Positions 8,825-20,252 of a stretch of DNA of 64,000 bases are shown here, piece by piece. The stretch covers positions 48,509-112,508 of the forward strand of contig CAMSQA010000002.1 of the NCBI GenBank assembly GCA_947062475.1. The letters run 5' to 3'. How positions within the stretch are numbered: position 1 is the first letter of the stretch; each line of letters begins with the position of its first letter. The stretch comes from an uncultured Clostridia bacterium. GTDB taxonomy: Bacteria; Bacillota; Clostridia; Christensenellales; UBA1242. The notes beneath the pieces are model-generated. The model was not told the DNA's origin, did not search any database, and saw nothing but the letters and a program-made list of their open reading frames with translations. The position numbers and the translations under genes were made by a program.

Positions 8825-8900
8825 GGACTTGTAGCTCAGTTGGTAGAGCAATTGACTCTTAATCAATGGGTCCAGGGTTCGAGCCCCTGCAAGTCCACCA
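8825..8900 (+). tRNA. Element-borne intact tRNA-Lys (CTT), CCA encoded
   Basis: GGACTTG/CAAGTCC acceptor, ATTGA-CTCTTAA-TCAAT anticodon arm, CAGGG-TTCGAGC-CCCTG T arm, ACCA end. Confidence 0.94.
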
Positions 8901-15089: not shown

Positions 15090-17138
15090 TTAATTATTAT
15101 TTTCTATCTCTGCAAGATATTGTTCATATGTGTAACTATAATATATTTTTGCTGGAGAACTAGGGGTTTCTGATCCATCATTTGAAGTGAATTGTCCAGT
15201 ATATTTCCAACGATAATCCCAGTCTGAATTTACACTTTCACAATAAACTTTTAATATACTACTGTTACAACCACGAAATATATAAGCCCCCATAGTAGTT
15301 ATACTCTTTGGGATATAAATACTTTTTAAATTATCACATCGTGCAAAGGCTAAAGACCCAAGGCATGTAACACTACTAGGAAGTGCGATATTTGTTAAAC
15401 TTTTGCAACTTGCAAAAGCATCATCACCAATAGATGTGACACCATATTCAAGTGTAACTGATGTTAAACCTGTACATTCTTGAAATGCACCATAGTAAAT
15501 AGTTTCAACACTGCTTGGTATTGTAATAGATGTTAAACCTGTACATCCATTAAATGCATACTGACCAATAGATTCAACGCTGCTTGGTATTGTAATAGAT
15601 GTTAGTTTTGAGCAATTATAAAATGCATAATACTCAATATTCTCAACGCTGCTTGGGATTTCTATAGATGTTAAACCTGTACATCCTGTAAGTCCACCAA
15701 GTGTCTTAAGACCATATTCAAGTGTAATAGAAGTTAAACCTGTGCAATCCTTAAACCCCTTAAGTGTTTCAACACTGCTTGGGATTGTGATAGATGTCAA
15801 TCCAGTACAATTTTCAAAAGCCGAGATGTATTTAACTCCATTTGAAATAGACAAAGTTTTTAAACCCGTACACCCACTAAAACCTCCAAGGTTTTCAACA
15901 GTGCCTGGTATTGTAATATCTGTTAGTTTTGTACATCTAGTGAAGCCACTTATATTTGTAACACTGCTTGGTATTGTAATATCTGTTAGATTTGTGCAAT
16001 CAGTAAAACCCATAACGCTTGTAACAGTATCTGGAATAGTTAAAGATTTTAGACCTGTACATCCACCAAAACCTCCAAGTGTTTTGACACTGCTTGGAAT
16101 ATTGCCAATACTTGTTAGACTTGTACAGCCTCTAAATGCACCATTTTTAATAGTGCTTAATTGATTACCAATATAAATAATCTCTCTAATAGTTGTCATA
16201 TTCTCAAATGCACCTACAAATTTTGTAGTTACAAATGGATATGTGCCAGATTCAACATCTCTACCATAAATACTTTTTACTGGAAAAGAATTTATATATT
16301 CTGGAATAATTGCAATCGTTGCATTCTCTTCTTTATATTCTGTAATTACTGCTCCACCATCAGATACATAATAAGAGTATTTGCTATAATCAATATTAAT
16401 CCATTTAGCATAAATTCTTGAATTTGTTGTAAATGTTGTAGTTTCAGCGAGTTGTACATTAAAATAAGGGTCTAAAAAGTATCCATAAAAATACTTTTCA
16501 ATCATAGGGTTAGTTGTTATATCTTCTGGTTTTTTTAGATTTGTTAATATATAATCATTATCTTCATTAGTATATATTGTATCATAAAGATTTCCATCAA
16601 CATATACTTCAACTGCTACTTTCCATTTTGCATATAAATTAACATTATGTGAAGGCATTGTTGTTGCTGTAAATGGTTGTGAATTGTCGGTATACCAATA
16701 ATCAAAAGTATAACCTGACTTTGTAGGTGTAGGCAAGTTTAGGCTTGTTCCTTCGTTTTGCGTAATAGCACTCAATGCATTTCCGCCATTAGTGTTAAAA
16801 GTAATTGTATATTGTTCTAATGATTTTGTCCATTTTGCATATAAAATAGTATCACTATTAATGGTATCAACTGCAAATCTAAATTCATAGTTATAGTTAG
16901 AATCAATATACCACCCAGCAAACTTATAATTAACTTTTGTGGGTTGGGTCGGCTCGTTTATCAATTGACCTTTTTCAACTTGAATATTATCAATATTGCT
17001 TCCACCACACGTGTCGAAAGTTACTATACAATATGTAGGTGTTGGATCAATATCTTTGTTTGGTCCACAAGCAGTAAAAAGAAGAGTGCCACATATAAGC
17101 ACAAACATTAAACAGATTATTGTTTTAAACTTTTTCAT
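15090..17138 (-). CDS. BspA-like leucine-rich-repeat surface lipoprotein with InlB B-type repeats
   Basis: Lipobox LLFTACG; Listeria-Bacteroides repeats (YCIVTFDTCGGSNIDNIQVEKGQLI..PTKVNYKFAGWYID); many TSITIPSSVxxIxxxAFxxCTGL LRR_5 repeats. Confidence 0.92.
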   Translation of the reverse strand: MKKFKTIICLMFVLICGTLLFTACGPNKDIDPTPTYCIVTFDTCGGSNIDNIQVEKGQLINEPTQPTKVNYKFAGWYIDSNYNYEFRFAVDTINSDTILYAKWTKSLEQYTITFNTNGGNALSAITQNEGTSLNLPTPTKSGYTFDYWYTDNSQPFTATTMPSHNVNLYAKWKVAVEVYVDGNLYDTIYTNEDNDYILTNLKKPEDITTNPMIEKYFYGYFLDPYFNVQLAETTTFTTNSRIYAKWINIDYSKYSYYVSDGGAVITEYKEENATIAIIPEYINSFPVKSIYGRDVESGTYPFVTTKFVGAFENMTTIREIIYIGNQLSTIKNGAFRGCTSLTSIGNIPSSVKTLGGFGGCTGLKSLTIPDTVTSVMGFTDCTNLTDITIPSSVTNISGFTRCTKLTDITIPGTVENLGGFSGCTGLKTLSISNGVKYISAFENCTGLTSITIPSSVETLKGFKDCTGLTSITLEYGLKTLGGLTGCTGLTSIEIPSSVENIEYYAFYNCSKLTSITIPSSVESIGQYAFNGCTGLTSITIPSSVETIYYGAFQECTGLTSVTLEYGVTSIGDDAFASCKSLTNIALPSSVTCLGSLAFARCDNLKSIYIPKSITTMGAYIFRGCNSSILKVYCESVNSDWDYRWKYTGQFTSNDGSETPSSPAKIYYSYTYEQYLAEIENNN

Positions 17139-17306: not shown

Positions 17307-17606
17307 ATGGATAAACAAGACTTGATTTTTAAGATAAGCACTATTCGCACAAATGCAAACTTATCTGCAAGAAAGTTATCACTAAATATTGACATGCACG
17401 ATAGTTATATAAATAGGCTTGAAAGTCAAAAAGACTTTTTACCAAGTATGGAAGTGTTTTTTAAGATACTTGAAGAATGTAATTGTTCTGCTGAAAAGTT
17501 CTTTTATCATGACTACAACAACTATGAAAGTGATATGGAGATTTTAGAAAAGTTTAAGAGTTTGAGTGAAGATAAGAAGAAAGCATTATTAGAGTTTATA
17601 AAATAA
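17307..17606 (+). CDS. XRE-family transcriptional regulator
   Basis: KISTIRTNANLSARKLSLNIDMHDSYINRLESQKDFLPSMEVFFKILE. Confidence 0.8.
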   Translation: MDKQDLIFKISTIRTNANLSARKLSLNIDMHDSYINRLESQKDFLPSMEVFFKILEECNCSAEKFFYHDYNNYESDMEILEKFKSLSEDKKKALLEFIK

Positions 17607-17625: not shown

Positions 17626-18420
17626 TTAATTTTTTTGTGGCTTATGAAAATACTGCTTGTCTATGCAAGTGATAATTTCGCCAGTGTTTCGGTCAATAAA
17701 CTTATGTTTATCACTAAAACAATAAAGATTGTTGCCAGTTTCTTTTATGCTGTCTTTATTTGCTTTGTCAAGTATATCACAAACACCTTGCTTATTTGTG
17801 GTTATCTCATGCTTATTTGCGATTGGAAAATCTTTGCTATTAGATATGATTTGCACAAATTGTGGTAGTTTGGTGTATGTGGGGTTATCTGGGTTTATAT
17901 TTTCGGTTTTAGGTTGTGTGAAATAATCCACAAGCCCATAAGCTTCGGTTACTCTTTTAAAGTCTGTAAAACCTTGTTTCCAATGCTTTTTAACCCATGT
18001 TTTAGTAAAGTTTTTTGGTATTTCATTTTTAAACATTAAAATCAAATGTATATGAAAATGGATGTTATCTTCAAAGGATTCAATAGCACGAATATAAAAG
18101 CACTTACCAAAATTTCTTTTGATACATAGCATAAAAGATTGAAATTTCTTTTTTAATTCAGTTCATAACATTATATTTGAAGTAGTTAAAGTTAAAAAGA
18201 CACATTTATTAGGAACTAAATCAAAGGTATATAGTTTTTGTCTAAACTGCTTTAAGGTCTTTTCATATTTTTTGGTTGTTATAAAAGGATTGTCTTTGTT
18301 TCGTGTTTTAGTGGGTAGTACACGATTTTTAACAATAGCACCTTTAAAATGATTATAATTTTTTTGAATTACTATTCTATCATTATTATAGATAGTAACT
18401 TTGTATTGTTTATTTTTCAT
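17626..18420 (-). pseudogene. HUH-type rolling-circle Rep protein interrupted by one in-frame TGA
   Basis: ORFs 18163-18420 (motif 1-like VFLTLTT) and 17626-18132 (HUH: NIHFHIHLIL; Tyr region AYGLVDYFTQ) share one frame and are separated only by TGA at 18163-18165 plus 10 sense codons. Confidence 0.8.
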
Positions 18421-18721: not shown

Positions 18722-18784
18722 AAAAGTCTAACACTTTGTTGAGAACTACAAGAGTTAATAATGGAATAAGTTATTACTCTTAAT

Positions 18785-18821
18785 CGAAGGGTCCGGGGTT
18801 CGAGCCCCCGGCAGTCCACCA
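18785..18821 (+). pseudogene. 3' half of split tRNA-Lys(CTT) (attR)
   Basis: CGAAGGGTCCGGGGTTCGAGCCCCCGGCAGTCCACCA complements the 5' half at 8621-8659. Confidence 0.92.
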
Positions 18822-18868: not shown

Positions 18869-19150
18869 TCAAGTTGCTATGACATCCGCCATTTTATCTA
18901 GTTTTTTATTTGCCAATTTCGATGTGAAATTCTTAAAAAATTCTATTTCCTCTTTAGTTTTATCATCAGTCATGTTGTTTAATGTTTGATAATTTTCAAT
19001 AATTTTCTTTTTAGTCAATCCAAAAAAATCATTGACTTCATTTAAAGTTTCAAGCATAAAATCAACAACTTCTTTTTGCTCTGAATAAGTTAATTTTTCC
19101 CAATGCTTGTCAAAATTTTTGTTTAAATTTTTAAGTGTTTTTGCTTCCAT
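18869..19150 (-). CDS. Hypothetical protein (93 aa)
   Basis: ORF immediately downstream of the homopolymer-containing promoter. Confidence 0.55.
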   Translation of the reverse strand: MEAKTLKNLNKNFDKHWEKLTYSEQKEVVDFMLETLNEVNDFFGLTKKKIIENYQTLNNMTDDKTKEEIEFFKNFTSKLANKKLDKMADVIAT

Positions 19151-19180
19151 AATTTTCTTCTTATAAACTTTACTACTTTA

Positions 19181-19206
19181 ATTATACATCGGGGGGGGGA
19201 TGTCAA
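19181..19206 (-). promoter_or_regulatory. Candidate phase-variable promoter with C9 tract in the spacer
   Basis: Minus strand: TTGACA-T-CCCCCCCCC-GATG-TATAAT; 14-nt spacer, 31 bp before the ATG. Confidence 0.7.
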
Positions 19207-19215
19207 GCCCTTTTT

Positions 19216-19734
19216 TCAAAAAAAATCTTTGAAAACTTTGCTTTCTTGTGGGCCACTGCTGTTTTGATATTTTCCATCATAGAGTTTGATTTTTCCTTTT
19301 GGCTTCCAAAACATTATTTGTCCTATTTTCATGCCTTTATAAATTCTTATTGGCTGAACTGCATGAAGCTGAAAGGTGAGGTTGCCTTTAAAGCCAATAT
19401 CCACTAAATCTGCCGTTATTTGCACAAAAAGTCCAAGCCTTCCTGTTGAGCTTCGTCCAGTTATGGTTGGGACAAAAAAATCACTTCCGATAATTTCTTT
19501 TGTAAAACCTAGATAAATCTTGTTTGGCTCTAAAATAAGTCCTTCATCTGGAATATGAATTGTTTTTGTTTTAAGAGATTTTTTGCTGTCTAAAATATCA
19601 TCCTCATAGACTTTTAAATAATCGCCGAGTTCTAAGTTGTAACTATTTGGATTGATACATTTCTTATCAAAAGGTGAGATGATTATTTTGTTTTTTTTGA
19701 CTTGTTTTGATATTTCATTCCCTGTAAGAATCAT
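19216..19734 (-). CDS. dCTP deaminase-family protein, paralog A (catalytic Glu replaced by Gln)
   Basis: TGRSSTGRLGLFVQITADLVDIGFKGNLTFQLHAVQPIRIYKGMKIGQIMFW. Confidence 0.85.
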   Translation of the reverse strand: MILTGNEISKQVKKNKIIISPFDKKCINPNSYNLELGDYLKVYEDDILDSKKSLKTKTIHIPDEGLILEPNKIYLGFTKEIIGSDFFVPTITGRSSTGRLGLFVQITADLVDIGFKGNLTFQLHAVQPIRIYKGMKIGQIMFWKPKGKIKLYDGKYQNSSGPQESKVFKDFF

Positions 19735-20252
19735 ATTAACTCCTTATAAAATTTACTGATTTGTGCCGATTGAAATTGTTTGTATTCACCATTTTGATAG
19801 GTTAAAGCTTTTCTTCCCTTAATTTTCCAAAAGGTCACTTGCCCAATTTTCATAAAAGGATAAATTTTTAATGGCTGGACAACTTTCAATTCAAGTGTCC
19901 AATTGTGAAAAGTCCCGACATGTCCAAGCGGGGCGGTGATTTGAAGAAAAAGACCAATTCTGCCCAGTGAACTTCTGCCGATTAGTTGTGTGACAAATTT
20001 ATCACTTCCAATTTTCTCATAAGTGGATGATAGATAAAGTTTGCCAGGCATCAAAATATAGCCTTCTGGTGGAATGATTATTTTTTTGAAAGAAGGTTTT
20101 TCTCTTGCATCAAGAGTTTCATCAAATTCTATCAATTCATTATTAAGCCTATAATTATAACTATTTGGGTTGAGCATGCTTTCTATAAAAGGCTCAATTT
20201 TTATATTTTTTTTATGATATTGTTTGATAATTTCAAGTTTTGTGAGTATCAT
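19731..20252 (-). CDS. dCTP deaminase-family protein, paralog B (Glu kept, Asp site changed)
   Basis: IGRSSLGRIGLFLQITAPLGHVGTFHNWTLELKVVQPLKIYPFMKIGQVTFW. Confidence 0.82.
   Translation of the reverse strand: MILTKLEIIKQYHKKNIKIEPFIESMLNPNSYNYRLNNELIEFDETLDAREKPSFKKIIIPPEGYILMPGKLYLSSTYEKIGSDKFVTQLIGRSSLGRIGLFLQITAPLGHVGTFHNWTLELKVVQPLKIYPFMKIGQVTFWKIKGRKALTYQNGEYKQFQSAQISKFYKELI

Follow-up and report, generated by a model that had tools for sequence, protein, structure and literature searches.

A promoter with a C9 spacer tract upstream of a truncated gene is one member of a large promoter family in a genus of uncultured Clostridia

A C9-spacer promoter and the open reading frame behind it

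The window, by which we mean the whole 64-kb stretch of Clostridia DNA that was analyzed, carries on its minus strand a promoter that lies between a dCTP deaminase-like gene and a short open reading frame (ORF). The features of this locus, with positions counted from the first letter of the window, are as follows.

18771 to 18821, plus strand: tRNA-Lys(CTT)-like 3′ half, matching the 3′-terminal part of the intact tRNA-Lys (8825 to 8900) at 87%
18869 to 19150, minus strand: 93-aa ORF, the N-terminal remnant of a 189-aa protein of the congener G037
19181 to 19186, minus strand: −10 box TATAAT, perfect in sequence
19187 to 19200, minus strand: 14-nt spacer TCCCCCCCCCGATG, composed of T-C9-GATG
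19191 to 19199, minus strand: C9 homopolymer, the putative slip tract; the lone G/C run of at least 6 nt in the window, at the modal family length of 9
19201 to 19206, minus strand: −35 box TTGACA, perfect in sequence and matched by the family model (R1)
19207 to 19220, minus strand: A-rich block TTTGAAAAAAGGGC, abutting the −35 box upstream (family version, TTTTAAAAAAnnAC); seen in alignment A1, the R1 alignment, and the site table
19216 to 19734, minus strand: dCTP deaminase-like gene upstream of the promoter (Pfam DCD, 1.2 × 10−39; synteny with G037)

The minus-strand sequence TTGACA-T-C9-GATG-TATAAT given in the preliminary description was verified exactly at positions 19206 to 19181, and its claim that the C9 (19199 to 19191) is the sole long G/C run holds across all 64 kb, with no other G/C run of at least 6 nt; for comparison, a window of shuffled sequence would contain C7 0.43 times on average. 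The distance to the ORF, previously put at 31 bp, measures 30 nt from the −10 box to the ATG. The window contains three TTGACA-N10-24-TATAAT pairs, and only this one has a plausible spacer. As in porA-type promoters, the stretch between the two boxes holds a homopolymer, which is uninterrupted and, at or above roughly 8 G/C, long enough to slip.

Over its first 86 aa, the product of the ORF is 69% identical to the 189-aa protein of G037; the missing C-terminal half was not found elsewhere in the window. The dN/dS ratio of ∼0.13 over the part common to both proteins indicates that constraint acted on this part during evolution. The Shine-Dalgarno sequence of the ORF (AAGAAG) is weaker than that of the G037 relative (AAGGAGG). 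The 93-aa protein has no Pfam match, and a pattern search of GTDB contigs returned no homologues. The neighborhood is the same in G037, where the dCTP deaminase pair, a NUDIX-NrtR regulator, and proteins that we take, from reading their sequences, to be DegV-like and LexA-like are followed by two paralogues of 181 and 189 aa. The pair kept in G037 corresponds to tandem dCTP deaminase-like genes of 172 and 173 aa at 19216 to 20252 of the window.

The tRNA-Lys(CTT)-like 3′ half at 18771 to 18821, which is followed by a terminator-like hairpin, adjoins the truncation point of the ORF and is a probable attachment-site scar. Because the ORF stops beside this fragment, the gene appears to have been cut when a mobile element integrated or was lost. 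Truncated as it is, the ORF may no longer yield a working protein, and with its weakened ribosome site, this copy may be a relic. In G037, a tRNA-like tandem repeat (L003:396-946) occupies the position that corresponds to the window's scar, just 3′ of the 189-aa gene. Farther along, a weak Pfam match identifies a REP_ORF2-G2P-type replication protein at 17626 to 18420, with an 85-aa ORF upstream and a helix-turn-helix (HTH) gene nearby at 17307 to 17606; these genes probably belong to a small plasmid or phage-like element that has integrated. Positions 15090 to 17138 encode a 682-aa protein in which Pfam recognizes Listeria-Bacteroides repeats as well as BspA leucine-rich repeats, and leucine-rich-repeat proteins of the congener G027 have G-tract promoters at their head.

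A promoter family with poly-C or poly-G spacers

Both G037 paralogues are preceded by the promoter TTGACA-(C-rich 14 nt)-TATAAT, with the spacers TTTC8GAT and ATCCCTCCTCCGAT, and a pattern derived from these promoters recovered relatives in other congeners. A strict version of the motif gave eight matches in 264 Gb of sequence from 85,462 GTDB species; all eight belong to this genus, since each coincides with a site known from its genomes. We built a sequence-only model (R1) from 12 related promoters, the one at 19206 to 19181 included; on the window, it returned exactly that one site (E = 4 × 10−13). Across the genus, the 12-site model matched 110 of 112 genomes with up to 25 sites per genome, counts that extend to an E value of 0.5 and include chance matches. 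In the genome that contains the window (a 1.05-Mb assembly), seven sites reached an E value of ≤0.002, and two weaker ones (E = 0.025 and 0.036) agree with the family on visual inspection. A loose C-tract pattern identified 127 sites in 58 of 310 family genomes (9 of 42 genera), and a mirror poly-G pattern identified 63 sites in 27 of the 112 genus genomes; the reversed-pattern controls gave zero matches in the same 310 and 112 genomes, respectively. The promoter at 19206 to 19181 is thus one member of a large promoter family that runs through one genus of uncultured Clostridia, with the consensus TTTTAAAAAAnnAC-TTGACA-AAT-C9-GAG-TATAAT.

The anatomy of the family is narrow. Tracts are nearly always 8 to 10 nt long: uninterrupted C tracts span 7 to 12 nt when other genera are included, with 71 of 100 at exactly 9, and among the genus sites of the loose-pattern set, 78 of 113 C tracts are 9 nt and none exceeds 10. 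At 84 of 100 sites, the C tract begins 3 to 4 nt past the −35 box, while the gap to the −10 box varies more. Spacers are 15 to 16 nt long at 101 of 189 sites and 17 to 18 nt at 19 of 189, whereas the boxes of ordinary TTGACA-TATAAT pairs across this 0.68 Mb are most often 17 nt apart (18 of 40, with 23 of 40 at 17 to 18 nt). The family spacers thus avoid the ordinary 17- to 18-nt optimum (P = 3 × 10−10), and the difference persists when each combination of genome, polarity, and spacer length is counted once (P = 1 × 10−6; 54, 18, and 21 counts for 15 to 16, 17 to 18, and 19 to 20 nt, respectively). We claim only the shift to 15 to 16 nt, because a second peak at 19 to 20 nt, clear in the raw counts, is weak after this reduction. 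The idea of a spacer length fixed per genome was contradicted once more sites were examined. At 14 nt, the spacer of the promoter at 19206 to 19181 is at the low end of the family. The earlier proposal that a gain of about 3 C would bring it to an optimal 17 nt is unsupported as a description of an ON state (C12/17 nt), because no congener tract in the pattern set exceeds 10 and the spacers of the family center on 15 to 16 nt.

The ORFs behind these promoters start a median of 26 nt past the −10 box, and at 124 of 148 sites, they start with a ribosome site of at least four matched bases. The genes driven by the family are lineage specific and often encode secreted or membrane proteins. Their 158 products form 104 clusters by sequence; a crude hydropathy count gives 59 of the 158 a hydrophobic N terminus and 11 another membrane segment (together ∼45%). 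Pfam names few of them; the names include Listeria-Bacteroides repeats, DUF4116, BspA leucine-rich repeats, SDR, an ABC exporter, and glycosyl- and methyltransferases. In G046 and G073, poly-G promoters head families of large secreted-looking proteins. Two paralogous secreted-looking proteins in the window's own genome (G000:C1:646 and C19:656, loci L261 and L268) have weaker G9-spacer promoters near contig ends and have a common C-terminal stretch, NAYTDTYKGNGGTIGGR, at the contig break; they probably represent a repeat surface-protein family that broke the assembly.

Explanations for the homopolymer and its length differences

On balance, we favor transcriptional phase variation by slippage, of the type described for porA, as the explanation of the family, and we regard it as fairly probable from the sequence comparisons that follow. 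A run of 8 to 10 C, or the mirror G, would fill most of the spacer between the −35 and −10 boxes, and replication slippage at the run would change the spacer by one or two bases. This would alter the use of the promoter by sigma-70 RNA polymerase, and each cell lineage would come to express its own selection of the driven genes, most of them lineage specific and many of them surface genes. Because polymerase contact would depend on the exact length of the run, the family promoters are probably slip-prone switches for dispensable and surface genes.

Near-identical copies differ in tract length. Two contig-end copies in G098 (C18 and C30) match base for base through 60 nt of upstream and 100 nt of downstream flank but carry G8 and G9, respectively, and similar one-base differences separate related copies in G027, G024, and G073. 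The G040 and G102 orthologues have identical compared flanks and differ by one spacer base; those of G034 and G035 differ by one flank mismatch and one spacer base. Errors of assembly could, in theory, account for copies of 8 and 9. In 17 pairs that could be aligned, 11 differences in spacer length fell within 272 bp, against 23 indels within 2,598 bp of flank (P = 2 × 10−4), a result that is indicative only, because the pairs were handpicked for alignable flanks. The homopolymer occurs in either polarity, and the flanks of the poly-G and poly-C tracts differ.

Long runs are also found beyond promoters. G/C runs of at least 8 nt number 13 in the window's own genome, whereas independent bases at the composition of the window would give ∼0.6; ∼9 are in promoter-like spacers, and others are in or beside coding starts. 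Besides the C9 at 19199 to 19191, tracts of this genome include those at G000 C1:646, C1:129398, C3:45344, C3:59158, C7:1423, C11:29353, C11:39316, C18:4513, and C19:656. In an acyltransferase-3 gene of this genome (PF01757, OafA-like), the frame breaks a few codons past a coding G9 and the rest continues in another frame (G000:C18 near 4513; locus L267, about 1313), an arrangement typical of a contingency locus. Another run lies inside an SDR-like gene broken in several places, and one comes immediately after an ATG that opens no long ORF. In congeners, in-frame G/C tracts occur near the start of long ORFs, some right after signal peptides.

Several observations count against slippage. The length peak at 9 is tight; a minority of tracts are interrupted (for example, CCCTCCTCC, C5ACC, and C4TCCC) without a change in length, something that slippage by itself would not require; and in the pairs G072/G092, G094/G102, and G000/G037, a substitution alters the run while the spacer length is kept. 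A loss of mismatch repair is not supported as a cause of slippage, with MutL-family matches in 112 of 112 genomes of the genus; a MutL homologue throughout the genus would damp slippage.

The same regularities suit a different reading, in which the C/G block serves as a conserved operator or structural element: a genus-specific regulator or a special DNA shape would act on a short spacer whose core is rich in G/C, and binding, not mutability, would keep its length. This reading would account for the 8- to 10-nt length, the fixed placement of the block 3 to 4 nt from the −35 box while its distance to the −10 box varies, the interrupted blocks that stay C rich, the conserved A-rich block upstream and GAG/GAT/GAC downstream, and the centering of spacers on 15 to 16 nt. 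We nevertheless judge it unlikely, since poly-G occurs besides poly-C with different flanks, otherwise identical copies differ in length, and long runs are present within coding starts too. The operators of CsoR/RcnR/FrmR regulators hold a G/C tract within a short inverted repeat. Such an operator was considered here because the C tract at 19206 to 19181 lies within a local inverted repeat of this kind, ACATC...GATGT, and was rejected because the window's own genome has no DUF156 gene (PF02583, found in 6 of 14 control genomes) and the repeat is not conserved: unlike in those operators, it is absent from other members, whose flanks (AAT...GAG and ATT...GCG) are not inverted repeats.

The promoter at 19206 to 19181 might instead be a decaying relic before a truncated gene, with a tract that has no present function. 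The loss of the C-terminal half of the ORF at the tRNA-like scar, the weak ribosome site, and the 14-nt spacer fit this description, and two other family sites in the same genome also head broken genes. A relic should, however, lose its perfect boxes and uninterrupted C9, both of which are intact, and we consider the relic reading improbable as an account of the tract, although it is compatible with slippage at the family level. A chance enclosure of a C run by a weak AT-rich promoter-like match has a negligible probability: such matches (16- to 18-nt spacers scanned) are no more common than in shuffles of the AT-rich region, but the arrangement recurs ahead of genes that have ribosome sites, in dozens of species, and the reversed control gives zero.

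Phase variation by slippage, which the preliminary description had proposed for this one promoter, thus carries over to the family, where both polarities, tract-length differences, spacer indels, and the coding frameshift favor it; it fares less well at the 93-aa ORF, and any switch at 19206 to 19181 is probably vestigial because its target gene is truncated. We infer that slippage gives rise to the length differences in living populations, that these affect transcription, and that selection acts on them.

Significance and relation to known systems

The best-known examples of phase variation by simple repeats come from Gram-negative bacteria of mucosal surfaces; for Clostridia, the cases that a recent review yielded are the invertible promoters of Clostridioides difficile (PMC11868660). 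A limited literature search brought up no report of the system described here. The family seems to represent spacer phase variation of the porA type, a known mechanism, on a scale that is unusual and apparently undescribed in Clostridia. More speculatively, one standard promoter cassette with a C9/G9 core, placed before dozens of unrelated genes, may give a whole complement of lineage-specific genes a combinatorial, mostly off-optimum expression state through slippage or through a factor that reads G/C-tract spacers of either polarity, a system apparently undescribed in Clostridia; we put this forward tentatively. If the slippage explanation is true, much strain-level expression diversity in small-genome uncultured Clostridia would be invisible to gene-content analysis. 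The set of slip-prone promoters is directly testable in existing metagenome reads, and with perfect boxes and spacers of 12 to 23 nt, the family offers a natural spacer series for the study of spacer tolerance.

Among the closest known systems are porA, opc, and fetA. In Neisseria meningitidis porA, a poly-G tract lies between the −35 and −10 boxes, and variants of 9 to 11 G lead to graded expression (PMC3639595). The promoters described here likewise have a homopolymer of similar size between the boxes (porA, 11G, with 9G and 10G variants), and by analogy, graded transcription through spacer length would be expected. Unlike porA, they form a common cassette that occurs up to ∼25 times per genome before unrelated genes, they belong to Clostridia and not Neisseria, their spacers center on 15 to 16 nt, and their switching is putative. 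A repeated cassette also characterizes the vlp genes of Mycoplasma hyorhinis, where a poly-A promoter precedes several surface-protein genes of one family; the cassette here is poly-C/G and heads many unrelated genes.

Homopolymeric tracts in a bacterial genome are a likeness to Bordetella pertussis, for which one study describes such tracts as sites of phase variation and microevolution (PMC1891110); the taxon and the promoters are different. For Campylobacter jejuni NCTC11168, another study reports a polyG/polyC phasome of 29 loci with tracts of at least 7 nt (PMC4965091). The two cases are alike in having many G/C runs of similar length in a small AT-rich genome and coding tracts that throw genes out of frame, and they differ in that the window's own genome has a MutL homologue and most of its long runs fall within promoter spacers.
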